Assembly: GCA_015067375.1 (NCBI GenBank)
Contig: SVMQ01000045.1
Location: 1 to 11,007, forward strand
Direction of reading: 5' to 3'
Origin: Oscillospiraceae bacterium
GTDB lineage: Bacteria; Bacillota; Clostridia; Oscillospirales; Ruminococcaceae
DNA length: 11,007 nucleotides
Part shown: in pieces, positions 1 through 11,007 of the stretch
Position numbering within the stretch: the stretch's first letter is position 1
Layout: each line of letters starts with the position of its first letter
Program-made: the position numbers and the translations under genes
Notes under the pieces: model-generated
What the model saw: the letters and a program-made list of their open reading frames with translations, nothing else
Databases searched by the model: none
What the model was told of the DNA's origin: nothing

Positions 1-1370
1 TTGTCAAGGATGTGTTCGTCACAGCGCATATCCTCCTGCCAGCCGCCAAGCTGTGTAAGCGAAAGCAGCTTCGGTGCGGCGGCGATGAGCGCGGAATTGA
101 GCTGCTCCTCATCTGTTTCAAGGAAGAAGTCAACGCCGCGGAGAAAGTCCCTTGCGGCAAGCAGCACCAGCGGTATATTATCGTAGCGGTACAAGCACAG
201 GTGCTTCATAAGCTCGTACATCAGGCGGCGCGCCGCGCCGAATGCGCCGCATTTGCCGTACAGCGCGTTTACGATAAGCTCGTTGCGCAGGTTGTAGTAG
301 TCCAGCACGAAGCTCTTTTTGCGGTCGAAAGCCTCGTGGCGCACTGCAATGCCGTTCATGGTGATTATCTCAGTGCCGCGCGGCTTTCTCATGCCGTATT
401 CCACGTCGTCGAACTTTATGAAGAACGGGTAGGGCAGACCGTTGTCGGTGACGGACAGCGGCATAAGCAGCGTCCACCAGCCGCCGTACTGCACATCGGG
501 GTTCGTGAGGTTGTCGAAAAGCGCCTGCGGTGAGCGTATGTCGAGGTCGTGCTTGTGTACTTCGGCTTCTTTGCCGTTCCATTCCGCGCCAAGCTCGAAC
601 TGTCGCCACGGCGCGTCGAGCGGTATCATCGCGGCGCTGAACCAGCTGTTTCGGTAGTCCTCTTTCAGCAGGCTCACGAATACGGTCATCTGTTCCAGCG
701 TTTCGGGATGGAACTCCACATCGTCGTCCATCAGTATGACGTGCGTGAAGCCGCCCTCTTTCGCCTCTATCAGACCTCTTGTGAAGCCGCCGCTGCCGCC
801 GTAGTTCTTGTTTTGAAGCACGGTGATGAAGCCGTCGGACAGTCCCTCGCGGTCGAGGGTGTTGCCGTTGTCCGAGAAGAACACCCTGTCGATGCAGGTG
901 AAGTCAAACGCGCGCAGGCGCTCGATATTGCGCAGGACGTATTCCTCGCGCCTGAACGTGCAAACGGCGATGCATACGCTTATGTCGCGCGGAGTGCAGT
1001 CGGCGCTGTAGGCCGCGCTGCGGATAAGGCAGTCGTCGTGCGCGGTGACTTCGGCGTAGATATAGCCTGCTTGGGGAAGCTGTGCAAGCTCGGCGCTTAC
1101 GGTGCAGCCGCTGCTTTTCGCGATGCAGGAATGCTCTGTGCCGTCAAAGCACATCAGCCTTGCGCTGACGCTGCCGCTTGCTTCGGCGGTGAAGCTGACG
1201 CGGTCGGCAACGGTATATTGCAGATATTTCGAGTAGCAGAAGCTGTTGTAGTATGTGCCGAAGCTGACTGTTTCGCCGCTTTTCAGTGAGATAGCGCCGC
1301 TGCACACTGCACCGCCGCTGAAATACAGCTCGGTATCGCGGTCGGGTATTATCATCTGTTGAAGTACCAT
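1..1370 (-). CDS. GlfT2-like galactofuranosyltransferase (GT2), C-terminus cut by window edge
   Basis: A continuous reading frame of 456 codons starts at ATG 1370 and runs off the left edge without a stop. AAAGGAG lies 10 nt upstream of the ATG. Residues about 1-125 form a beta-rich N-terminal domain like the one preceding the catalytic domain in mycobacterial GlfT2. The GT-A domain begins near residue 130 (ISVCIAVCTFRRE). Visible motifs are the metal-binding MDDDVEF (DDD 215-217), FDDVEYGMR (320-328), which corresponds to the (W/F)DDxEYG catalytic-base motif of the GlfT2 family, and RHE (344-346), in place of the family's conserved WHE/H motif. Mycobacterial GlfT2 is about 640 residues, so roughly 180 may be missing. 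The family transfers galactofuranose from UDP-Galf onto a growing glycan at the cytoplasmic membrane face. The gene lies 20 nt after glf, which supplies that donor. The Galf specificity is inferred from motifs plus neighbour; another furanose or pyranose donor is possible. Confidence 0.88.
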   Translation of the reverse strand, partial: MVLQQMIIPDRDTELYFSGGAVCSGAISLKSGETVSFGTYYNSFCYSKYLQYTVADRVSFTAEASGSVSARLMCFDGTEHSCIAKSSGCTVSAELAQLPQAGYIYAEVTAHDDCLIRSAAYSADCTPRDISVCIAVCTFRREEYVLRNIERLRAFDFTCIDRVFFSDNGNTLDREGLSDGFITVLQNKNYGGSGGFTRGLIEAKEGGFTHVILMDDDVEFHPETLEQMTVFVSLLKEDYRNSWFSAAMIPLDAPWRQFELGAEWNGKEAEVHKHDLDIRSPQALFDNLTNPDVQYGGWWTLLMPLSVTDNGLPYPFFIKFDDVEYGMRKPRGTEIITMNGIAVRHEAFDRKKSFVLDYYNLRNELIVNALYGKCGAFGAARRLMYELMKHLCLYRYDNIPLVLLAARDFLRGVDFFLETDEEQLNSALIAAAPKLLSLTQLGGWQEDMRCDEHILD

Positions 1371-1390: not shown

Positions 1391-2479
1391 TCAGATTTCC
1401 GCACGCGCCGTATCGAGCGCCGCGCGGATGACCTTGTCCATATCGTAGTATCTGTATTGTCCCAGTCTGCCGCCGAAAATCACATCGGGGCGCGACTTTG
1501 CAAGCTCCGTATACTGCCCGTACAGCGCGCTGTTGCGCTCGTCGTTGACGGGGTAGTAAGGCTCTGTGCCTCTTTGCCACTCCGCGGAGTATTCGCGGCT
1601 TATCACGGTCTTTGGCTGAGTGCCGAATTCGAAGTGCTTATGCTCGATTATGCGAGTGTAGGGGACGTCTGCCGCGGTGTAGTTAACGACGGCGTTGCCC
1701 TGATAGTTATCGGTGTCCAAGACCTCGCTCTCAAAGCGCACGGAGCGGTATTGAAGCTCGCCCAGCGCATAGCCGAAGAATTCGTCGATGCAGCCGCAGT
1801 ACACTGTTTTTGCGGCGGATATCTCGTGCTTTATGTCGGCGTATTCGGTGTTTAGGCGCACTTCTATCCCATCCAGCAGCCGTTCAAATATCGCTGTGTA
1901 GCCGCCGACGGGGATGCCCTGATAGCGGTCGGAGAAATAGTTGTTGTCATAGGTGAAGCGAAGCGGCAGCCGCCTGATTATGAATGAGGGAAGCTCATTG
2001 CAGGGTCTGCCCCACTGCTTTTCGGTGTAGCCCTTTACAAGCTTTTCATAGACATCCGTGCCGACGAGCGAGAGCGCCTGCTCTTCAAGATTTTTCGGCT
2101 CGGAGATACCGAGCTGTGCTATCTGCGCGGCTATCTTTTCCTTAGCCTCGGCAGGAGTTTTTATGCCCCACATTCTGCTGAAAGTATTCATGTTGAAGGG
2201 CAGGTTGTACAGCTCGTCGCCGTATACCGCGACGGGGGAGTTTACGAAATTGTTGAACTGCGCGAAGCGGTTGATGTACGCCCATACCTCCTCGTCTGAG
2301 GTGTGGAAGATATGTGCGCCGTACTTGTGTACGTTGATGCCCTCGACGCGCTCGGTGTAGCAGTTTCCGCCGATGTGCGGACGCTTGTCGATAACAAGGC
2401 ACTTTTTGCCGCGGTCGGTCATCTCACGCGCAAATACCGCGCCGAAAAGACCCGCGCCGACGATTAGATAGTCGTACAT
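1391..2479 (-). CDS. glf: UDP-galactopyranose mutase
   Basis: This is a flavoenzyme that interconverts UDP-galactopyranose and UDP-galactofuranose in the cytoplasm, supplying the Galf donor. The 362-residue protein is full length for the bacterial family (about 365-390). The N-terminus is an FAD-binding Rossmann motif, VGAGLFGAVFAREM, with the acidic end of strand 2 at VIDKRPHIGGNCY. Family hallmarks follow: HKYGAHIFHTSDEEVW, WGRPCNELPSFIIRRLPLRFTY, and near the C-terminus PYYPVNDERNSALY and FGGRLGQYRYYDMDKV, which include the flavin and substrate arginines and tyrosines. AGGAGG sits 8 nt before the ATG, inside the 3' end of the preceding gene. Only 2 nt separate the two genes, so they are probably translationally coupled. 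The next gene downstream is the GlfT2-like transferase that would use the product. Confidence 0.97.
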   Translation of the reverse strand: MYDYLIVGAGLFGAVFAREMTDRGKKCLVIDKRPHIGGNCYTERVEGINVHKYGAHIFHTSDEEVWAYINRFAQFNNFVNSPVAVYGDELYNLPFNMNTFSRMWGIKTPAEAKEKIAAQIAQLGISEPKNLEEQALSLVGTDVYEKLVKGYTEKQWGRPCNELPSFIIRRLPLRFTYDNNYFSDRYQGIPVGGYTAIFERLLDGIEVRLNTEYADIKHEISAAKTVYCGCIDEFFGYALGELQYRSVRFESEVLDTDNYQGNAVVNYTAADVPYTRIIEHKHFEFGTQPKTVISREYSAEWQRGTEPYYPVNDERNSALYGQYTELAKSRPDVIFGGRLGQYRYYDMDKVIRAALDTARAEI

Positions 2480-2481
2480 CC

Positions 2482-3324
2482 CTATTTCCTCCTAAGCTTT
2501 TTGGCAAGCCGCTTTGCAATAAATCTACGTCTGCTCTCGGGCGGAAGCAGCGCACAGCCTATGCGCTTTTTTCTGCTGCACTGCAAGTCGAGGCGCGGCA
2601 CCTCCGCGACGCGTGCGCCGTTGCTGCGGCAGTATGACGCGAAGATGCCTGTGAATAATTCTCCGAGATAGCCGTCCGTCCTGTCTGACTGAAAATCTCC
2701 GTGCAGGGTCTTGCGCCTGTCAAATTCGGCGAGTACAGGGAAGAGTATGCTGCAGTATTCGTGGAAATATCCGCGGCTCATGATGAACATATTGCAGAAG
2801 TGCTGACGGCGCTGCGCGAGGTATTCCTCTGCGGTCTTTGCAAGCTGCGGCGCCTGCTGTGCGAGTATCTCGGTAAACAGCCGCAGGTCGTCCTCGTAGT
2901 GGTGTATAGAGGTGATGTAGTGTTCGCGCGCGGACAGTCCCATGTCCTCGCTGCGCGGCAGGATGATGTCGTGGGCGGATATGAGAGTGCGCCAGTATTC
3001 CTCGTCGCCAAGAAGCCTTGTGCGCTGTGCTTCATTCAGCTGTCCCAGTGCGAGATAGGGGCGTTTCGTGCAGCCCTGTGTGCCGAAGAAGCGGCGGTAG
3101 TGGCAGAAGCCGTAGTAGTCCGCTTCGATGTTCTTCCATGCGTAGTAGTGCGCGGTAAGCTCACAGTATTGCCGATTGAGCGCGGATATGTTGTCGCCGC
3201 CGTCGTCGCGCACCGCGCCCTCGACGGGTGCGTTAAGTGCCGCGCCGCAAAGTATCGGCTTCCACAGCGGTGGGAGGATATCGTACTGCTTGTGACAGCA
3301 CATCAGCAGGCTGAGCTTTTCCAA
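2482..3324 (-). CDS. DUF4422 family glycosyltransferase-like protein
   Basis: A 280-residue soluble protein of the DUF4422 type found in capsule and teichoic-acid-like clusters. It shows the family's landmarks: an N-terminal strand leading to MCCHK (8-12), the signature YYGFCHYRRFFG (70-81), a DIILPR-type strand in the middle, FIMSRGYFHEYC, and GYLGELFTGIF near the C-terminus. DUF4422 proteins are regarded as GT-A-like glycosyltransferases, but no defined reaction can be read here. The C-terminal tail (RRRFIAKRLAKKLRRK) is strongly basic and may hold the protein at the inner membrane face; that is inference. The start is TTG at 3324, not ATG: AGAGG lies 7 nt upstream, and an in-frame TAG eight codons upstream rules out a much longer form. 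Met8 is the only nearby ATG alternative. The gene is 54 nt downstream of the transporter ATPase and nearly abuts glf. Confidence 0.9.
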   Translation of the reverse strand: MEKLSLLMCCHKQYDILPPLWKPILCGAALNAPVEGAVRDDGGDNISALNRQYCELTAHYYAWKNIEADYYGFCHYRRFFGTQGCTKRPYLALGQLNEAQRTRLLGDEEYWRTLISAHDIILPRSEDMGLSAREHYITSIHHYEDDLRLFTEILAQQAPQLAKTAEEYLAQRRQHFCNMFIMSRGYFHEYCSILFPVLAEFDRRKTLHGDFQSDRTDGYLGELFTGIFASYCRSNGARVAEVPRLDLQCSRKKRIGCALLPPESRRRFIAKRLAKKLRRK

Positions 3325-3329
3325 CGTTA

Positions 3330-3338
3330 CACCTCTTT
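3330..3338 (-). promoter_or_regulatory. Ribosome binding site deciding the TTG start at 3324
   Basis: On the minus strand the bases read AAAGAGGTG. The AGAGG core is 7 nt before TTG 3324. This spacing selects TTG over the internal ATG at codon 8, which would cut off the first beta strand (EKLSLL). Confidence 0.6.
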
Positions 3339-3347
3339 CATACAGCT

Positions 3348-3374
3348 AAGGCGGACAGGATGACTGACCGCCTT
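3348..3374. other. Intercistronic hairpin between ABC ATPase and DUF4422 genes
   Basis: AAGGCGG (3348-3354) pairs with CCGCCTT (3368-3374). After one A-A mismatch, CAG (3356-3358) pairs with CTG (3364-3366) around a 5-nt loop. On the minus (operon) strand the hairpin begins 4 nt after the ATPase stop but is followed by AGCTGTATG with no T run, so it is not a standard terminator for the operon. On the plus strand it is followed by TTTTGTTT and would look like an intrinsic terminator of antisense transcription. It may instead protect or define the 3' end of a processed upstream mRNA. Confidence 0.65.
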
Positions 3375-3378
3375 TTGT

Positions 3379-4140
3379 TTACTTCTTTTCGGGGAGCTTC
3401 TTTGTTTTCAGAAATTCCTCGTACATATCGCATATCTCGGCGGTATCTCCGAAAGCTATCTGCTTGCCGTGGTCGAGCCACAGAACTTTGTTGCACATCC
3501 TGCGTACCTGTGCGATGGAGTGCGATACCAGTATGGTGACCTTGCCTTTTTCGATTATCTCGCGCATCTTTGCTTCGCTCTTCTCGCGGAATGCGCCGTC
3601 GCCGACGGAAAGCACCTCGTCCAGTATCAGTATCTCAGGCTCCATCATGCTTGCAATGGAGAACGCGATGCGCGATTTCATGCCGCTTGAAAGCTGCTTG
3701 AACGGGCGCTGCTCAAACTCCTGAAGTTCGGAAAATGCGAGGATGTCGGGATATTTCTCATCCATGAATTTGCGCGTATAGCCAAGCATCGCGCCACGCA
3801 GGTATGCGTTTTCTTTCAGGTTCAGGTCGCCGTCAAAGCCGCTTCCGAGTTCAAGCAGGGCGGCGATCTTGCCGTTTACCTTTACGCTTCCGTTTGTGGG
3901 AACCATTATCTGTGTGATGGCTTTCAGCAGGGTAGATTTGCCTGCGCCGTTCGTGCCCACTATTCCCAGCATATCGCCCTGATACAGCGAGAACGAAACG
4001 CTATCCACCGCAACAAAGCTTTTGACCTGATAATTGCGTGTGAGCTTTTTCATTACGAACTCCTTGAGTCCGATATTGCGCAGGTCGCCTATGACGTATT
4101 TTATGGATACATTTTTGACTTCGATTATTGGCTTGCTCAT
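3379..4140 (-). CDS. Polysaccharide/teichoic-acid ABC exporter ATPase (Wzt/TagH type, short form)
   Basis: This is the ATP-hydrolysing subunit that powers export of a lipid-linked glycan by the adjacent permease. All nucleotide-binding elements are present in 253 residues: Walker A GTNGAGKST (62-70), the Wzt/TagH-style ELGSGFDGDLNLKEN Q-loop region (97-111), the signature LSSGMKSR (150-157), Walker B ILILDE with catalytic E175, the D-loop SVGD (178-181), and the switch His207 in VSHS. The segment before Walker A (NIGLKEFVMKKLTRNYQVK) matches the extended N-terminus of the O-antigen/teichoic-acid subfamily. The protein ends soon after the nucleotide-binding domain (TKKLPEKK). It therefore lacks the C-terminal carbohydrate-binding domain of E. 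coli O8/O9a-type Wzt. A GGGG-rich ribosome binding site precedes the ATG, and only 12 nt separate it from the permease gene. Substrate identity cannot be read from the sequence. Confidence 0.94.
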   Translation of the reverse strand: MSKPIIEVKNVSIKYVIGDLRNIGLKEFVMKKLTRNYQVKSFVAVDSVSFSLYQGDMLGIVGTNGAGKSTLLKAITQIMVPTNGSVKVNGKIAALLELGSGFDGDLNLKENAYLRGAMLGYTRKFMDEKYPDILAFSELQEFEQRPFKQLSSGMKSRIAFSIASMMEPEILILDEVLSVGDGAFREKSEAKMREIIEKGKVTILVSHSIAQVRRMCNKVLWLDHGKQIAFGDTAEICDMYEEFLKTKKLPEKK

Positions 4141-4152
4141 ATTCTACCCCTA

Positions 4153-4920
4153 TCAGATATAGTACAGGAACTTGTAGTTCTTCTTTTTGTAGATCAATGC
4201 TCCTATTGCCAGAGCGACAAGCGCATACGCTGCCGCCAGCAGATGGAAAGAAAGCTGAGGTATGTCGCCTTCAAGAATGATCTTTCTGAAATAACGTATA
4301 TACACATATATGGGGTTGAGATAGAACAGATACTGTGTCTGCTGTGAATAGGCGTCGATGGAATAGAATATCGCAGAAACATACATCAGCAGCATCGTGA
4401 ATACGTCGTAGAGGTACTTCATGTCCCTGAACATGATATACATTGCCGACAATATCAGTCCCATTCCGAGATTGAATACGACAAGACAGCCTATAGGATA
4501 GAGCAGAAGTATGAACTTCCATGTGAACGCAACACCGTCTATCGCGCAGAACAAGAACAGCATCAGCAGGTTTATTCCGAAGTTTATGAGGCTGGAAACG
4601 TTTATTGACAGCAGGAACATATATTTCGGAACGTTCACCTTGGAGAAGATGCCTGCATTGTTGTACAGCGCGGTCATGCCTGTGTTGGTGGACTCCCTGA
4701 AATAGCTGAACAGCAGGTTTCCGCAGAACAGGTAGATGATATAGTGATCCATGGTCCTGCCGAAGAACTTTGTGAATACCAGAGCCATTACGCCCAGCGT
4801 CATAAGCGGCCCTAGTACGCTCCACAGCATTCCCAGCACAGTGCGTTTATACTTTTTCGTGAAATCGCGCTTTACCAGCTCCTCAAAGAGAAAGCGGTTC
4901 TGTTTAAGTTTTTGTAGCAT
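4153..4920 (-). CDS. ABC-2 type polysaccharide export permease (Wzm/TagG type)
   Basis: The membrane-spanning subunit of the glycan exporter, 255 residues, the usual size for Wzm/TagG. The N-terminal amphipathic stretch FEELVKRDFTKKYKRT and the following LGMLWSVLGPLMTLG are the hallmark entry to the family. About six hydrophobic segments can be seen, roughly at residues 30-52, 60-78, 103-128, 135-160, 170-190 and 225-245, with the conserved NPIYVYIRYFR near 202-212. The tail KKKNYKFLYYI is basic and cytoplasmic. AAGGTG gives a ribosome binding site before the ATG. The gene lies 31 nt downstream of the PMT-like gene and 12 nt upstream of its ATPase partner. It moves undecaprenyl-linked glycan out of the cytoplasm; whether the product is capsule, teichoic-acid-like polymer or another wall glycan is not decided by the sequence. 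Confidence 0.94.
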   Translation of the reverse strand: MLQKLKQNRFLFEELVKRDFTKKYKRTVLGMLWSVLGPLMTLGVMALVFTKFFGRTMDHYIIYLFCGNLLFSYFRESTNTGMTALYNNAGIFSKVNVPKYMFLLSINVSSLINFGINLLMLFLFCAIDGVAFTWKFILLLYPIGCLVVFNLGMGLILSAMYIMFRDMKYLYDVFTMLLMYVSAIFYSIDAYSQQTQYLFYLNPIYVYIRYFRKIILEGDIPQLSFHLLAAAYALVALAIGALIYKKKNYKFLYYI

Positions 4921-4951: not shown

Positions 4952-7057
4952 TTATCGGTCGTAGACTGTGATGTTAAGACCGTCGTCGCGCTTAACTTGT
5001 TTATAGCCTTCGGTGGCTTTTGCGATAAAATCGTTATCTGATGAGCTGTTTGCCCGATAGCTGCAGTATATGATCGTATTATACTGATCCAGGAATGAAT
5101 CATCCTTGATATTGGCTATACGAATAAAGTTTACGTCATCCCTGATGCCGCGTTTCGTCATGTAGAACTCATAGAAGCCTTCGGCTACATAAGAATTACC
5201 TGTCATCACAACGATGCAGTCGTCGTTATAAACATAATTGATCTGTTTGTATATCCATTCGGCACAGTCTCTGTAATAATGAACAGGCTTGAAATTAGCG
5301 CTGGTACTCTTTGTGTATGTCGATGGCAGAGTAACAGCAATAAGTACCGCCGCCACCATAGCGCCCGCATGAGCGCTGTGTTCCTTGAATGCCTGTCCAA
5401 CACAATATACAGCGTGCGCCTGTACCGCGAAAACACACGGTACAATAACGAAGAAATAACGCTCTATCCACAGTGTTGCGTTCGGCGAAAACTTTCCGTA
5501 TATGAACAACATTCCGAACATTACTATTATCAGCATAAGCGGTATTGCCGGCGCGATATCCTTGCGGTGCTCGTAGGTGTTGTTTTTGAGCTTTATTATT
5601 ATTGATGCAACAACGGTTATTGCTCCCGCATAGAACATCCATGTCAGTATTTCGTTATCGCTGCAGAAATAACTGATATAATCTATTATCCTTGATAATG
5701 ATGGCTGGTGCTGCCATGTGGCCTGATTGTTGCCTATGTGATTTCCTGTTATAAAACAGATCAGCCATGGGATATAGGCAACAAAAGGTATGATATAGGC
5801 GAAGACCACTTTTGCTTTTACCTGCTTGCTAAGCCACAGGAGAAGGTCTACGCTGAACATCGCAACACACAAGAATACGCCGAAATAATGCGTATAAGTA
5901 AGCGGTATCGTAACAGCACCCATTACAACAATATCACGCCATGTTGCGTCGTTGCCTTTTTTGATCCTCTTGATGGAATACAGCAGGTACAGAGAAGAAA
6001 ACAACAGTACGAATCCATAAGTGCGGTATTGCAGGCTGGCATTTGAGATCACTGCTGTTGATGTCGCCATCAGTACTGCACATAATACACCTGTGCTTTC
6101 GTTGCAGATCTCTTTGCCGACAAGTCCGATGAAATATATTGCACCGCAAACTGCAAGTGCAGATAACAGCAGAAGCCATCCTTGACCATAAGGAACTATG
6201 TTATACCATATATTGGCTATTACTCTGAAAAGGGGAGGTGTTGTTTCCGGCAGCATCAGTGTTTCGTACACGGATCTTCCGTTTCCGCTGAAAGATACCT
6301 GAAACATTTCGTCGAGCCAAAACGACTTGTCGTCAAACAAAGGTACACATATCAAAAGTGAGCTTGCTGCTATCACCGCGTAGATCATGTGATATCTGAA
6401 TCTGTGCAACTTGTTTTTCTCGTCGGCAAATGCAAACTGTATCGTCAGTATCACTGCAAACATTGCCGCCATATATACTGCGACATGAAGTCCGTACAGC
6501 ATAAGCGCACATATCTTTGTGCCCCTGCTGCTTTCAAATGATACATCGCCGCCCTCTTTGAAGCAGTCTATTACCGTTTGGTTTCCGTCAAGCTCTATCT
6601 CCACCATACCTTTCCATTTGTCCATGGAAAGGTTTATCGTTCTGTCAAGACCGACAGGCACTTTCAGAACGATCGATCTTGTCATGCCGTCAGGTTTTCT
6701 GGTATCCTCTTCGATACGCCACATATAGGACTCGCCGTACCACATCCATTTTCCTTCGACAGGTGGCTTGATCTTATATTGCTTGTTGTCAACGGTATAG
6801 TGATTTATTACTATTTCATCAGCGCTGGCTTCCGGATTGTGCTCTCCGAGAGCGGTAAATCTGACTTCTTCGTATAATACGCCCGTATGGTTGGCAAAAA
6901 TGCAGCTCAATAATATGGCGAAAACGCCGAAGATGCAGCCTATCAGCGATATCGCTTTCGGCAGCTCTTTTTTCAGCTTCTTAACGATAAATGCAGATGC
7001 TAATATCAGCGCAACTGCGATCACTGCCACTATGAAGCATTTGATAATGACCATCAT
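4952..7057 (-). CDS. GT-C / PMT (GT39)-like membrane glycosyltransferase with extracytoplasmic N-terminal domain
   Basis: First gene of the minus-strand operon; 701 residues from ATG 7057. The frame is open further, to an ATG at 7255, but that extension would cover the -35/-10 promoter at 7110-7138 and reads as non-protein-like, whereas AAAGGAG lies 10 nt before 7057. Layout: TM1 (3-25), a Lys-rich cytoplasmic loop, TM2 (35-55), a beta-rich soluble domain (56-181), TM3 (182-210), a basic loop, TM4 (222-241), then FWLDEMFQ (246-253) and TTPPLF (272-277). The acidic DE pair plus PPLF is the catalytic-loop pattern of PMT/ArnT-like GT-C enzymes, which use polyprenyl-phosphate sugars outside the membrane. 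Roughly nine more TM segments follow, then a soluble C-terminal domain of about 125 residues. Positive-inside reasoning places both the 56-181 domain and the DE loop outside. The likely role is side-chain sugar addition to the exported glycan; donor and acceptor are unknown. The gene is clearly AT-richer than the operon's distal genes. Confidence 0.88.
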   Translation of the reverse strand: MMVIIKCFIVAVIAVALILASAFIVKKLKKELPKAISLIGCIFGVFAILLSCIFANHTGVLYEEVRFTALGEHNPEASADEIVINHYTVDNKQYKIKPPVEGKWMWYGESYMWRIEEDTRKPDGMTRSIVLKVPVGLDRTINLSMDKWKGMVEIELDGNQTVIDCFKEGGDVSFESSRGTKICALMLYGLHVAVYMAAMFAVILTIQFAFADEKNKLHRFRYHMIYAVIAASSLLICVPLFDDKSFWLDEMFQVSFSGNGRSVYETLMLPETTPPLFRVIANIWYNIVPYGQGWLLLLSALAVCGAIYFIGLVGKEICNESTGVLCAVLMATSTAVISNASLQYRTYGFVLLFSSLYLLYSIKRIKKGNDATWRDIVVMGAVTIPLTYTHYFGVFLCVAMFSVDLLLWLSKQVKAKVVFAYIIPFVAYIPWLICFITGNHIGNNQATWQHQPSLSRIIDYISYFCSDNEILTWMFYAGAITVVASIIIKLKNNTYEHRKDIAPAIPLMLIIVMFGMLFIYGKFSPNATLWIERYFFVIVPCVFAVQAHAVYCVGQAFKEHSAHAGAMVAAVLIAVTLPSTYTKSTSANFKPVHYYRDCAEWIYKQINYVYNDDCIVVMTGNSYVAEGFYEFYMTKRGIRDDVNFIRIANIKDDSFLDQYNTIIYCSYRANSSSDNDFIAKATEGYKQVKRDDGLNITVYDR

Positions 7058-7067
7058 ACCTTGGGTT

Positions 7068-7138: not shown

Positions 7139-7236
7139 TATGTTGTTTTGATGAATATGTTGCGCTGAAACAACTGATACTTGATCAATGTGGCTATATC
7201 CTGTATTGCATAGCCTTGAACAGTTTGTGTATATGC
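7139..7236. promoter_or_regulatory. Divergent promoter interval with ATGTTGC repeats (possible operator)
   Basis: This 98-bp non-coding stretch lies between the two divergent -35 boxes. The heptamer ATGTTGC occurs at 7085-7091, 7121-7127 and 7157-7163, and the variant ATGTTGT at 7140-7146, so copies at 7121, 7140 and 7157 are spaced 19 and 17 bp apart. The interval also holds GTTG/CAAC (7159-7162 with 7171-7174) and the palindrome TTGATCAA (7181-7188). No convincing gene is present. A regulator binding here could act on both operons; no regulator gene is in the window. Confidence 0.4.
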
Positions 7237-7265
7237 TTGACAAAAGGCGTGTCACATTGTATAAT
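7237..7265 (+). promoter_or_regulatory. Perfect-consensus housekeeping promoter for the AsnB-like/methyltransferase operon
   Basis: TTGACA (7237-7242) and TATAAT (7260-7265) are separated by 17 bp, a perfect match to the sigma70/SigA consensus at every hexamer base. Transcription would start near 7272, about 35 nt before ATG 7307. The surrounding bases ATGCTTGACAAAA (7233-7245) recur exactly at the promoter before the right-hand glycosyltransferase. Confidence 0.92.
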
Positions 7266-7306
7266 CATAGTATCTGTATTATTTGTAAACGGAAAGGAAT
7301 ATTGGT

Positions 7307-9223
7307 ATGGGTATCGCTATCAAAAAGCTTGAAGCAAATGACATCTCATCATTCAACGAATTTCTTGAAACTGACCGAACTCAGCTTCCGAATTTAAAGC
7401 TTTCATCGCTCGTAGAGCCGCATGAGGATATCGCTGTCGTTGCAGGCAAGAGGGGCAGACGCTCGCTTGACGGATTTGCGCAGCGCTATAATTTTGTGGT
7501 GGGCGAGTATGGCGGAAATATCATCAGCCTTTCGCGCCATGAGCCTGTAAGGATGAGCGACAACAAAAGCTATATTTTTTCGGGATATGCTATATACAAC
7601 GGGAAGATGTTCATCGGCATGGATGAGATGGCGCAGGCAACGGATGATATCCGCCCTGTGAATGGCTGCTACGGCGAGTTCAACAGCTGCGTTATCGGCT
7701 ATGACAGCATACACCTTTCATCTGACTATTTTGGCATGATACCGTGGTTCTATTTCGATAACGACGAGGTGTTTGCCGCGTCCAACAACTATCATCTGCT
7801 TTTGCTTGTGCTGGCTGAGCTTGGGGTAAAGCTCTCTATGAACATCCCCAGAAGCAGAGTGAATGCCATTACTTCGGGCTACACCTACGGAAGCGCTTTT
7901 TCTGCGGATCTGGATGTAGCAGGATGCAGAATGAACCTGTCATACGAGGAGATCAGCTACTCCTCCGCTGACGGTGTACGGCTTGAACCTACTACTTTGT
8001 GGGATCTGGTGTCAGACAAGAACGAGTGGGACGAAGCGGTTTACGAGGATTGCATAAACAAAGCAAGGGACGAGCTGCTGACCAATTGCAGGGCGGTATT
8101 TGAGCATCCGAAATTCACAAAGATCGTTGTCGATGTGAGCGGCGGATTTGACAGCCGTGTCGTATTCGCCTGTGCCTGCAGTATGCCCGAAAGGCTGAAA
8201 AAGAAGCTCTATACCTACACTCGCCGCAGCGGAACAAAGGACGATGTTGAGATCGCAGCTGCTGTGACCAATATGTTTGATTTTCCGAAGCATAATTACG
8301 GCAACACTGATACCAGCAGTCTTTATGATGCTTCGGGTGATATCAATCTTGCGTCCGTATCCCGTAATCTTGGTATTTTTTCTGTCAATCCCTATTTGTA
8401 TACCGCAAAATATAATGACTATAAGACATTGGAGCTGACAGGCGGCATCGGTGATATCACGCTCGGATATCAGCGCATACGCGGAGAGGTTGACTTTTCG
8501 CTTGGCGACAAGCGCCTGATGGCACGTCTTGGCGGCTGCTATCTGCACAACAGCGTGGATGAGCTTCAGGGAGTATTCCGCGATCAGGAGAGGATCATTT
8601 TTAATACGCTGGACAAATACAGCTTCTGCGATTGTCTGTTCAAGAAGTTCCATATGCTCTACATTGATTTCAGAAACAGACTCAACTTCGGCTCGGGTCA
8701 CAATATTGAGAACAATAATATGCGTATTCCTATGGTCGCGTCGAAATATGCGCTCAAGGCAAAATGGATGCATTTCAACAGATTCACTGATAACCAGATA
8801 CCCGATGAGAAGGTGTCGTTTGACGTGCTGGCTGCTATCGATCCGATTTTTACAGTACTTCCGTTTGCAAGCAATAATGATAATGTTATTCCCAAGCCCG
8901 AAAGACTGTTAAAGCCGTATAGACTCAAGGTCGAGCCTGATTTCACCGTCCACCCGGGTCCTAAGGCTGAGAATGCGGAGGGACTTTACAAGAATAAGGC
9001 AGTTGAATATATGGACAATATCGACATTGCCGAGCAGATGCTTCTGCATATCTACGACTATTCCGCGGAGTATCAGCCTGTTTGTCTGGGACTTTACAAG
9101 GTGCTTCAGCTGTTCAGACAGCAGCCTGAGGACGCAACTTCGGGTCATGGCAGAGAAACTGTCAGAAAGATATACGATCTCTACTATCAGATAAGACTTG
9201 TCGAGGCTGCCTGCTCAAAATGA
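7307..9223 (+). CDS. Asparagine-synthetase-like PP-loop ATPase without the glutaminase cysteine
   Basis: A 638-residue protein preceded by AAAGGAA 7 nt before the ATG. Residues about 85-165 resemble the core of the class II glutamine amidotransferase domain (YAIYNGK, GEFNSCVIGYDSIHLSSDYFG, then VFAASN at 155-160). However, the chain begins M-G-I rather than the M-C-G of active enzymes, and about 80 unfamiliar residues precede the recognisable part, so glutamine hydrolysis is not expected. The synthetase half has the ATP-pyrophosphatase loop SGGFDSR (278-284), the strand YTYTRRSGTKDDVEIAAAV, and TGGIGDITLGY (378-388) where asparagine synthetases carry the GADE-type motif. NNMRIPMVASKYALKAKW further on matches the family's C-terminal helical region. 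The expected chemistry is adenylation of a carboxylate and attack by ammonia or an amine, possibly amidation of a sugar acid. Lasso-peptide and beta-lactam cyclases also descend from this fold, but no precursor peptide is nearby. The substrate is unknown. Confidence 0.82.
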   Translation: MGIAIKKLEANDISSFNEFLETDRTQLPNLKLSSLVEPHEDIAVVAGKRGRRSLDGFAQRYNFVVGEYGGNIISLSRHEPVRMSDNKSYIFSGYAIYNGKMFIGMDEMAQATDDIRPVNGCYGEFNSCVIGYDSIHLSSDYFGMIPWFYFDNDEVFAASNNYHLLLLVLAELGVKLSMNIPRSRVNAITSGYTYGSAFSADLDVAGCRMNLSYEEISYSSADGVRLEPTTLWDLVSDKNEWDEAVYEDCINKARDELLTNCRAVFEHPKFTKIVVDVSGGFDSRVVFACACSMPERLKKKLYTYTRRSGTKDDVEIAAAVTNMFDFPKHNYGNTDTSSLYDASGDINLASVSRNLGIFSVNPYLYTAKYNDYKTLELTGGIGDITLGYQRIRGEVDFSLGDKRLMARLGGCYLHNSVDELQGVFRDQERIIFNTLDKYSFCDCLFKKFHMLYIDFRNRLNFGSGHNIENNNMRIPMVASKYALKAKWMHFNRFTDNQIPDEKVSFDVLAAIDPIFTVLPFASNNDNVIPKPERLLKPYRLKVEPDFTVHPGPKAENAEGLYKNKAVEYMDNIDIAEQMLLHIYDYSAEYQPVCLGLYKVLQLFRQQPEDATSGHGRETVRKIYDLYYQIRLVEAACSK

Positions 9224-9240
9224 TCCTGAACATCCTGAAC
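9223..9240 (+). repeat. Tandem 9-bp direct repeat in intergenic spacer
   Basis: ATCCTGAAC occurs twice head to tail (9223-9231, 9232-9240), starting on the last base of the upstream stop codon and ending at the ribosome binding site GAAGGAG. It fills most of the 30-nt spacer. It is probably a small duplication that sets the gene spacing; no function can be shown. Confidence 0.6.
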
Positions 9241-9253
9241 GAAGGAGTAAAAG

Positions 9254-10318
9254 ATGGCTAATAAAGTCAAAGCATTTTTGAAAAGATTCTTACCGTCTTC
9301 TTCGAATACCTTTATGGGTGAGGTAGCTCAGTTAAAAGAACAGCTGCGGCGTATGCAGGAAGAAGAGCTGAAAGCTGTGAATGATCTGCGTTCGCTCGTC
9401 ATAGACATGACTTCAGACATTTCCGATCGCATTGAGATAATGCAGGGCGAGTTGTCGCAGGTCAAGGCGAGATCAGATTCCGCGATCGCTCAGATATCGC
9501 ATTTGGAGCGTGGCAGTGAAAGTGGCCGGCAATCGATCGCTCAGGCCGACAGAGAGATCATGGAGTCGGTCTGTGCGCTTGAAAAGCGGCTTGATGAGCT
9601 TTCTTCCGCGCTGAAGAGCGTCGGAACGAATGCCGAAAAGGGTGCGAGATCTGCTAGCGAGGCGGTGTGGGCGAATGTCTTTCACGATACCTGCATCAAC
9701 AGTGACTGGTTGGATGACAAAGCGTTTTCCCCGGGTCGATGGGCTGTCGGCTATCAGATGCTTTATGTGATGTATCGTATACTGGACGAGGTGCGCCCGA
9801 AGAATATACTGGAGTTAGGTCTGGGGCAATCCACGAAATTATGCGCCCAATACGCAGCGCATAACAGCGATGTGACGCATCAGGTCGTGGAGCATGATGA
9901 GGATTGGATAGGCTTTTTCAGAAGCAATTACAGCGCGAGTATGGCGAATACCGAGATAGTGATGCTTGACAGGGAGATGAAGCCATTCATCAACGACAGC
10001 GTTGTGCGGTGCTTTGCGGGGTTTGAAGAGAGATTTTCCGCTCAGAAGTTCGACCTTATCATCGTTGACGCTCCATACAGCGCGGATATGAAGAAGTTTG
10101 CGCGTGTCGATGTGCTTAGTATCATTCCGCAATGCCTGTGCGATGATTTTGTCATCATCATTGATGATGCACATCGAATCGGCGAAAAGCATACTATCGA
10201 GGAGATCGAACGTGTGCTTAAGGCTGCAAAGATAGATCATAAGATCGGTCGTTACCACGGAGATAAGGAATGCGATGTGATATGTTCGCGCTCGCTCAGC
10301 TTCCTTGCAACACTTTAA
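9254..10318 (+). CDS. Coiled-coil protein with C-terminal SAM-dependent methyltransferase-like domain
   Basis: A 354-residue protein with a strong start signal (GAAGGAG, 6-nt spacer). Residues 1-13 are basic and hydrophobic (KVKAFLKRFL) and could bind the membrane surface. Residues about 20-135 are charged and helical with regular spaced Leu/Ile/Val (L27, L31, M34; V42, L45, L48/V49; L109, L113, L116, L120), interpreted as a long coiled coil. The C-terminal domain has a class I methyltransferase-like pattern: NILELGLGQSTKL (184-196) as the SAM-binding glycine loop, the acidic VVEHDEDW (211-218), DLIIVDAPY (267-275), and IIIDDAHR (301-308). The expected role is methylation of a glycan hydroxyl or carboxyl, or binding of a related cofactor; the acceptor cannot be inferred. 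It sits 30 nt after the AsnB-like gene in the same transcript, which suggests sequential action on one substrate. No transmembrane segment or signal peptide is seen. Confidence 0.8.
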   Translation: MANKVKAFLKRFLPSSSNTFMGEVAQLKEQLRRMQEEELKAVNDLRSLVIDMTSDISDRIEIMQGELSQVKARSDSAIAQISHLERGSESGRQSIAQADREIMESVCALEKRLDELSSALKSVGTNAEKGARSASEAVWANVFHDTCINSDWLDDKAFSPGRWAVGYQMLYVMYRILDEVRPKNILELGLGQSTKLCAQYAAHNSDVTHQVVEHDEDWIGFFRSNYSASMANTEIVMLDREMKPFINDSVVRCFAGFEERFSAQKFDLIIVDAPYSADMKKFARVDVLSIIPQCLCDDFVIIIDDAHRIGEKHTIEEIERVLKAAKIDHKIGRYHGDKECDVICSRSLSFLATL

Positions 10319-10323
10319 TACAG

Positions 10324-10370
10324 CATTTCGGTCTGGTCGTATACTTCACTCAGACCGAATGTTTATTATT
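10324..10370 (+). terminator. Intrinsic terminator of the AsnB-like/methyltransferase operon
   Basis: TCGGTCTG (10328-10335) pairs perfectly with CAGACCGA (10351-10358). The stem is extended outward by CAT/ATG pairs with one bulged T. The loop is about 15 nt, and a T-rich but interrupted tract (TGTTTATTATT) follows. It begins a few bases after the stop codon of the preceding gene. Confidence 0.82.
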
Positions 10371-10384
10371 ATGACTTTAAATGC

Positions 10385-10413
10385 TTGACAAAAAGCTGAC
10401 AATGCTGTATACT
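10385..10413 (+). promoter_or_regulatory. Near-consensus housekeeping promoter for the right-edge glycosyltransferase
   Basis: TTGACA (10385-10390) and TATACT (10408-10413) are separated by 17 bp, directly after the preceding terminator. Transcription would begin near 10420, about 57 nt before ATG 10477. ATGCTTGACAAAA (10381-10393) is identical to 7233-7245. A second TATAAT at 10431-10436 has no usable -35 at 16-18 bp. Confidence 0.85.
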
Positions 10414-10476: not shown

Positions 10477-11007
10477 ATGTTGAATGGTATAGTTATTTCA
10501 GTTGTAATTCCCATATACAATGCCGCCGGAAGTCTGGGGCGCTGTCTTGACTGCCTGCTGGCGCAGACGCACGAGGCGCTGGAGATAATCTGTGTGAACG
10601 ACGGCTCGACGGACGCCTCGGCTGATATACTCGAAGATCATGCGAAAAAAGACAGCAGGATCAGGGTCATCACACAGCGCAACAGCGGCGCAGGCGCTGC
10701 GCGAAATGCAGGCTTTGAAGCGGCAACAGGTAAATATGTGATTTTTCTTGACTCGGATGATATATTCGAGCCTGATATGCTGTATTCCATGGCGGAGCGT
10801 CTGGAGACGACGGGTGCGGACGCTGCTGTGTGCCTTTATGATGCGTTTGACAGCAGTACAGGAGAGCCTGTCATCAACTGCTGGATGCCGCCTGAGGAGC
10901 TGATGCAGCTGTCGGTGTTTTCTCCGACAGAAAGGAATGACTGCCTTTATCAGCTCGTGCAGGGCTGGCCCTGGGATAAAATGTTCCGTGCGGAGCATAT
11001 CCGAAAG
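10477..11007 (+). CDS. Family 2 glycosyltransferase, C-terminus cut by window edge
   Basis: The frame is open for 177 codons from ATG 10477 to the window end with no stop. AAGGAA lies 6 nt before the ATG. The N-terminal half is a classic GT-A inverting transferase: VISVVIPIYNAAGSL (6-20), the nucleotide-binding CVNDGSTDAS (39-48), RNSGAGAARNAGFEAATGKY (68-87), and the metal-binding DSDD (92-95) in IFLDSDDIFEPDM. GWPWDKMFR near the visible end matches the conserved W(D/N)K(L/M)(F/Y)R motif. It transfers a sugar from a nucleotide donor in the cytoplasm; the sugar and acceptor are not predictable. It has its own promoter and is separated from the upstream operon by a terminator, yet shares promoter bases with it. 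Its GC-rich codon use resembles glf and the GlfT2-like gene more than the PMT-like gene. Confidence 0.93.
   Translation, partial: MLNGIVISVVIPIYNAAGSLGRCLDCLLAQTHEALEIICVNDGSTDASADILEDHAKKDSRIRVITQRNSGAGAARNAGFEAATGKYVIFLDSDDIFEPDMLYSMAERLETTGADAAVCLYDAFDSSTGEPVINCWMPPEELMQLSVFSPTERNDCLYQLVQGWPWDKMFRAEHIRK

Follow-up and report, generated by a model that had tools for sequence, protein, structure and literature searches.

The two genes and their features

The window analysed in this work is a stretch of 11,007 nucleotides comprising positions 1-11007 of contig C148 of an Oscillospiraceae bacterium, whose genome is 73.8% complete. Our subject is two adjacent genes on its forward strand, one for an AsnB-like protein and one for a methyltransferase carrying a long helix, which the original prediction proposed as a possible glycan-modifying pair. 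Both open reading frames (ORFs) were found as predicted, separated by 30 nucleotides. Residue conservation was assessed in two alignments. A1 contains the window protein and 54 of 59 AsnB-like homologues (55 rows; the fragments P0033, P0053, P0056, P0057 and P0058 were excluded), and A2 contains the window methyltransferase and 58 of the 120 homologues listed among 890 matches (59 rows). The features of the two genes are as follows (Ntn, N-terminal nucleophile; SAM, S-adenosylmethionine).

7307..9223, + strand: putative AsnB-like amide synthetase without glutaminase nucleophile, 638 amino acids (ORF call, homologue alignment, predicted fold)
7424..7426, + strand: codon of Glu40, the former Ntn nucleophile position (structural alignments, A1)
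8138..8158, + strand: PP-loop SGGFDSR, residues 278-284 (invariant in 55/55 aligned rows)
8438..8455, + strand: TGGIGD, residues 378-383, a degenerate GADE-type motif retaining its acid (A1, MAFFT)
9254..10318, + strand: O-methyltransferase-fold protein with long N-terminal helix, 354 amino acids (ORF call, predicted fold)
9302..9694, + strand: long helix (residues 17-147), probably a coiled coil (helix prediction); the docking-like motif FLKRFLPSSSNTFMGEV overlaps the start of the helix
9806..9826, + strand: SAM motif ILELGLG, residues 185-191 (A2)
10067..10168, + strand: span with invariant Asp272, Asp304 and Asp305, candidate metal ligands (59/59 rows, fold prediction)

The AsnB-like protein and its link to UDP-uronate production

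The predicted fold of the AsnB-like protein is of the AsnB/beta-lactam-synthetase type, and the overall two-domain fold of glutamine-hydrolysing AsnB is present. In asparagine synthetase, GlmS and PurF residue 1 is the nucleophilic cysteine. When these enzymes were aligned structurally with the model, the first aligned residue was residue 1 or 2 on their side and residue 40 on the side of the model, thus the position equivalent to the nucleophile is internal, behind a 39-residue extension. This position is occupied by Glu in 47 of the 55 A1 rows and by something other than Cys in 54, the single Cys occurring in one row. The absence of an N-terminal cysteine, noted in the original prediction, holds for the whole alignment (Cys at residue 2 in 0/55), as does the intactness of the PP-loop. 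The GADE-type motif, described there as replaced, is indeed altered, to the consensus TGxxG[E/D], but its acid is retained (E in 35 and D in 20 rows), and it pairs with the D of Escherichia coli SGEGSDE in the MAFFT alignment. The acid at residue 383 is thus conserved in 55/55 rows and Lys502 in 54/55, with row identities as low as 32%. These two residues are candidate counterparts of the catalytic Tyr-Glu dyad and Lys of beta-lactam and carbapenam synthetases.

None of the Pfam and NCBIfam models claims the protein; the scores with the AsnB models were far below the curated cut-offs (PF00733, 11.6 of 21 bits; TIGR01536, 11.9 of 267.1 bits). Alignment of the A1 profile with E. coli AsnB by itself using hhalign gave a probability of only 1.8, and sequence searches of the PDB with this protein, the methyltransferase or a neighbour returned no clear relative. 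Judged from the modelled fold and the conserved residues, the protein is probably able to adenylate a carboxylate and unable to hydrolyse glutamine, so that ammonia from glutamine is probably unavailable to it because the Ntn nucleophile is lost. The same loss, together with the marked sequence drift expressed in the PF00733 score, might alternatively suggest a non-catalytic or regulatory relic of AsnB. This explanation was rejected as highly improbable, because in a relic the PP-loop, the acid and the lysine would not be expected to stay conserved across such divergent rows.

At least 59 homologues exist; a profile search returned the same 59 as the first search, and more distant relatives may be missed since scoring in both was restricted to the 7994 candidates with the most words in common. 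The gene is rare across the sampled genomes. It was detected in 3/61 relatives (two core, one of them the source genome, and one distant), 5/394 genomes of the order (2 core, 3 distant), 2/398 of the phylum (G000, which is the query genome, and G621), 2/396 of the family (1 distant) and 2/10 genomes of the family of G621, these samples being overlapping. The taxa named in the locus records were Clostridia, Lachnospiraceae, Ruminiclostridium, Succinivibrionaceae, Selenomonadaceae, Peptococcaceae and Bacillota. Eight distinct core loci were readable: the window and L007 to L013. Duplicates were counted once (L004/L095 equal L007 of G013, L015/L027 equal L009 of G315, and L038 equals L013 of G621), and so was L041 (G827), which shares the coordinates of L012. 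In seven of the eight the gene lies in a glycan locus, as had been proposed for the family, the exception being L011.

Some details of individual loci may be mentioned here. The AsnB-like gene of L013 (9895-11830) is broken into two overlapping frames by a frameshift or an assembly error. The SGGFDSR proteins of L011 (3-1955) and L014 (1252-3516) are very distant, with A1 profile scores of 33 and 41 bits; they are 33% identical to each other, and one of them is encoded next to a Wzm/Wzt-like exporter in an assembly of Methanobrevibacter. L007 (3792-4940) and L009 (8577-9983) share a conserved neighbour of 382-468 amino acids that resembles XcbB/CpsF only weakly (24-29 bits, against a cut-off of 125).

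The AsnB-like family tracks genes of the uridine diphosphate (UDP)-glucose 6-dehydrogenase type. Leaving the window aside, six of the seven core loci contain such a gene, and the window's own cluster very probably contains one as well. The last 13 bases of the window (10995-11007) are identical to bases 1-13 of contig C83 (L040) of the same genome. The GT2 gene joined across the two contigs has no internal stop, and its product aligns through the junction to a GT2 of L036 (43% over 298 residues). The same-strand genes of C83 encode two GT2-GT4 proteins and end in a UDP-glucose 6-dehydrogenase-type gene. These sequence matches strongly indicate that C148 and C83 adjoin, and the window was therefore counted among the dehydrogenase loci.

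For comparison 17 Wzt-exporter loci without AsnB-like gene were used, derived from 18 Wzt places in the window's genus (two in L083). The dehydrogenase was found in 7/8 core loci and in 3/17 controls (p 0.0017; this and the following p values are only indicative because the loci are few and partly related). When the closely similar L008, L012 and L013 were collapsed, the proportion was 5/6 (p 0.009); with the window excluded it was 6/7 (p 0.004), or 4/5 after collapsing (p 0.02). Two of the three positive controls, L086 and L088, are short (6.7 and 3.9 kb). Among the distant relatives, that of L031 adjoins UDP-glucose 6-dehydrogenase, and the larger ones of L028 (8440-12576, ORF of 1378 amino acids) and L029 (8564-11428, 954 amino acids) have UDP-GlcNAc 2-epimerase nearby, together with a UDP-ManNAc-type dehydrogenase that is partial in L028. 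In L030 there is UDP-GlcNAc 2-epimerase and no dehydrogenase in reach, and L014 has neither. Counting core and distant loci together, misses included, the proportion is 10/13 against 3/17 (p 0.0017).

This tracking strengthens the amidation idea of the original prediction. We favour, with moderate confidence, the interpretation that the AsnB-like protein is a glutaminase-less, adenosine triphosphate (ATP)-dependent amide synthetase for the carboxylate of a uronic acid, using ammonia or another amine. The enzyme would spend ATP to adenylate a uronic-acid residue at its C6 carboxylate; the uronic acid would most likely be glucuronate, which the cluster's UDP-glucose 6-dehydrogenase-type enzyme would supply, and the adenylated carboxylate would be attacked by free ammonia or another small amine. 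Substrate, amine and reaction, and likewise the target of methylation, are deduced here from fold and gene context.

Besides the limits of the p values, several points weigh against this interpretation. Glycan loci in general often contain UDP-uronate genes. The controls come from one genus, are centred on Wzt, which is present in only 4/8 core loci, and several are clipped at contig ends. L011, the sole core locus without dehydrogenase, has fumarase and flavoprotein genes and no uronate enzyme. No homologue with an experimentally tested function was found, and the product may be an ester, or an amide on another carboxylate. The literature searched contained no description of the family, which does not prove absence.

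Without a glutaminase, free ammonia or another amine is needed. Glutaminase-less enzymes of the AsnB fold, such as beta-lactam and carbapenam synthetases, use amines and not ammonia, and the predicted fold of the present protein resembles theirs. In L007, from the same genus as the window, a gene of the alanine/serine-racemase type (7218-8453) is directly upstream of the AsnB-like gene, stopping 3 nucleotides before the long AsnB-like ORF and 27 before the aligned start. Its product scored 342 bits with the alanine racemase model TIGR00492 (cut-off 168) and 377 with the VanT serine racemase model (below the 460 required), its best solved relative is the serine racemase 4ecl, and its genome, G013, holds three further PF01168 genes. 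The amine could thus be a D-amino acid, D-alanine or D-serine, coupled to glucuronate to give an amino-acid amide on the polysaccharide. Against this, the racemase gene was found in only 1/8 core loci, no amino-acid-binding residue was identified in the AsnB-like protein, and a control exporter locus (L084, 13377-15795) has a racemase-like gene (39%) next to a UDP-glucose dehydrogenase-like gene and no AsnB-like gene, which shows that the two can adjoin for other reasons. We therefore regard the racemase neighbour as a lead only, and a D-amino acid as an unlikely candidate.

The methyltransferase and its association with the AsnB-like gene

Transcription signals and neighbouring genes of the window are listed below.

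3..1370, - strand: galactofuranosyltransferase-2-like GT2, truncated at the window edge (PF17994, 31 bits, cut-off 26.1)
1391..2479, - strand: UDP-galactopyranose mutase (TIGR00031, 429.9 bits, above cut-off)
2482..3324, - strand: DUF4422 protein, glycosyltransferase-like by context (family match)
3379-4140, - strand: Wzt-like ATPase, 253 amino acids (family matches)
4153-4920, - strand: Wzm-like permease (family matches)
4952..7063, - strand: PMT_2-like membrane protein, first gene of the divergent operon (weak, 20.4 bits, cut-off 26.1)
7138-7110, - strand: divergent promoter of the membrane-protein operon (promoter scan)
7237..7265, + strand: promoter TTGACA-17-TATAAT, 5' of the AsnB-like gene (12/12 consensus matches, consensus match only)
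about 10316..10368, + strand: stem-loop 3' of the methyltransferase gene, candidate terminator without clear T run (z -4.72)
10385..10413, + strand: second promoter TTGACA-17-TATACT, 5' of the GT2 gene (11/12 matches)
10477..11007, + strand: GT2 glycosyltransferase, running on into contig C83 (family match); its tail bears a docking-like motif of the same type as that of the methyltransferase, FKRILPPPTNTFNREI

The Pfam scans assigned no family to some of the neighbour genes. For the membrane protein, a 767-amino-acid version starting at 7255 was rejected in favour of the start at 7063, because the divergent promoter lies inside the longer version. The two genes under study run divergent to the Wzm/Wzt-type export operon, as predicted. 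The promoter and terminator that they were said to share fared unequally. The upstream promoter matches the consensus fully, in a region where promoter-like sites are numerous (14, against a mean of 6.5 in shuffles); the downstream stem is stable, but the scan past the methyltransferase gene called no terminator-like site there.

The short gap and the single promoter would suit an obligate pair in which an amidase and a methyltransferase modify one sugar. Also consistent with such a pair, both genes occur in L013, a methyltransferase fragment is present in L012, and both genomes with an AsnB-like gene in the phylum sample carry the methyltransferase too. In L013 the methyltransferase is elsewhere in the locus, fused to a GT2, and in L012 it is likewise elsewhere, as judged from a 61-residue piece at a contig edge; among the eight core loci the two genes are adjacent in the window only. 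No methyltransferase was seen in 5/8. G013 (98% complete, same genus) has the AsnB-like gene and lacks the methyltransferase, and G049 and G818 show the reverse; the glycan locus that holds the methyltransferase of G049 also encodes UDP-glucose 6-dehydrogenase. The methyltransferase was detected in 1/43 genomes of the genus and 4/398 of the phylum sample, and a further search yielded no new genome (1/240, the query centre itself). The conserved two-gene pair was therefore rejected, and an obligate one appears very unlikely. Of the ATP-binding cassette (ABC) exporters, Wzm/Wzt is within reach in only 4/8 core loci (the window, L008, L012 and L013). The AsnB-like and methyltransferase genes occur in the same type of locus without being tied to one another; the methyltransferase would act separately on the same glycan, as an optional enzyme for tailoring or capping.

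The SAM-type fold proposed for the second protein was borne out by modelling: the predicted fold is that of a SAM-dependent, metal-dependent O-methyltransferase of the COMT/MycF type, and the SAM-pocket residues are invariant in A2. The three Asp residues are candidate metal ligands, by analogy with the COMT/MycF-type enzymes. The Pfam Methyltransf_24 cut-off was not reached by the window protein (18.0 of 26.3 bits), and PF13578 is carried by some homologues. The coiled coil of the original prediction corresponds to a single predicted helix, which is probably a coiled coil; this is not proven because the hydrophobic periodicity peaks at 3.6 and not at the heptad value of 3.5. The PDB sequence search gave weak matches to coiled-coil chains.

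The catalytic part is constant in length (217-219 residues in 59/59 rows), and the part preceding it varies from 65 to 279 residues, a spread that may partly reflect wrong start sites. An LKR-LPPP-FNRE-type element is common to the methyltransferase (FLKRFLPSSSNTFMGEV) and the tail of the neighbouring GT2 (FKRILPPPTNTFNREI). In L013, from another genus, a single 712-amino-acid protein (1391-3529) combines a GT2 with the docking-like motif, the long helix and the methyltransferase, a fusion recalling coiled-coil chain terminators. Together with the exporter in the same window and the rulers on terminators described in PMC11231755, these features suggest, tentatively, a WbdD-like chain terminator and ruler in which the chain would be capped by O-methylation and its length dictated by that of the helix. 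There are counterarguments: the helix is N-terminal and not C-terminal, its periodicity is not that of a heptad and the first helix is only weakly amphipathic (its value was reached by 405/5000 shuffles; GT2 tail, 179/5000), the Pfam scan of the window found no kinase domain, and the 253-residue Wzt has no carbohydrate-binding domain among the best 25 of 27 Pfam matches. In the favoured interpretation, the long helix would keep the metal-dependent sugar O-methyltransferase fold close to the glycosyltransferases.

Taken together, the data could describe a new family of glutamine-independent AsnB-fold ligases in anaerobes, by which the glucuronic acid of surface glycans would be joined in amide linkage to amino acids (perhaps D-Ala or D-Ser), beside a ruler methyltransferase sharing a docking element with a polymerising GT2. 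In this full form the proposal is speculative and we do not expect all of it to hold.

Comparison with known systems

Bacterial surface glycans change in charge when their uronic acids carry amide decorations, and to our knowledge few of the coupling enzymes have been described. The AsnB-like family is small and sufficiently conserved for direct testing, is below the Pfam and NCBIfam cut-offs, and its gene context points to a clear candidate substrate. The variable-length helix of the methyltransferase offers a possible case of chain-length control outside the Gram-negative O-antigen models.

Beta-lactam and carbapenam synthetases act intramolecularly on small metabolites. They share with the AsnB-like protein the AsnB fold without Ntn nucleophile, whereas the latter is in a glycan locus, is about 140 residues longer than the PDB chains and has the 39-residue N-terminal extension. 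The hydroxyamidotransferase TsnB9, a natural-product enzyme, is 10-12% identical to it. The methyltransferase is 8-16% identical to COMT, MycF, NovP and SpnH, and differs from them in the long N-terminal helix and the docking-like motif.

WbpS retains the glutaminase nucleophile, which is lost here, and the core partner of the present family is a UDP-glucose 6-dehydrogenase-type and not a UDP-HexNAcA enzyme. The WbpS/WbqG model eps_aminotran_1 (TIGR03108) was not among the four matches obtained up to E 1, so that the known WbpS-type amidases form a different HMM family, a further point against uronate amidation. The likeness to WbpS/WbqG is that an AsnB-type enzyme is encoded in a glycan locus beside a dehydrogenase making a nucleotide uronic acid, an arrangement found in 7/8 core loci, in the window through the contig join. 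AsnB-type uronamide formation has precedents in WbpS of Helicobacter pullorum and Porphyromonas gingivalis and, for the b-Cool locus of Bordetella, in a putative asparagine synthase; WbpS/WbqG are reported to amidate a uronic acid carboxylate, an activity that is only inferred in our case; the H. pullorum paper names HexNAcAN in a results passage and HexNAcA in the discussion. The C-terminal amide ligase of Campylobacter Cj1438 joins an amine to glucuronate after chain transfer in an ABC-exported capsule, as described in PMC11800397; its chemistry differs from the AsnB type, which forms adenosine monophosphate, because it produces adenosine diphosphate.

With chain terminators of the WbdD type, whose rulers are treated in PMC11231755, the second protein shares the methyltransferase, the long helix, the ABC-export locus and, in some members, fusion to a glycosyltransferase module; the differences are the helix on the opposite side, the lack of a kinase in the scan and the exporter ATPase without carbohydrate-binding domain. 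On the best reading, the AsnB-like enzyme would resemble WbpS in outcome, whereas its architecture would be that of beta-lactam synthetase; the tests applied here do not assign it to either family.

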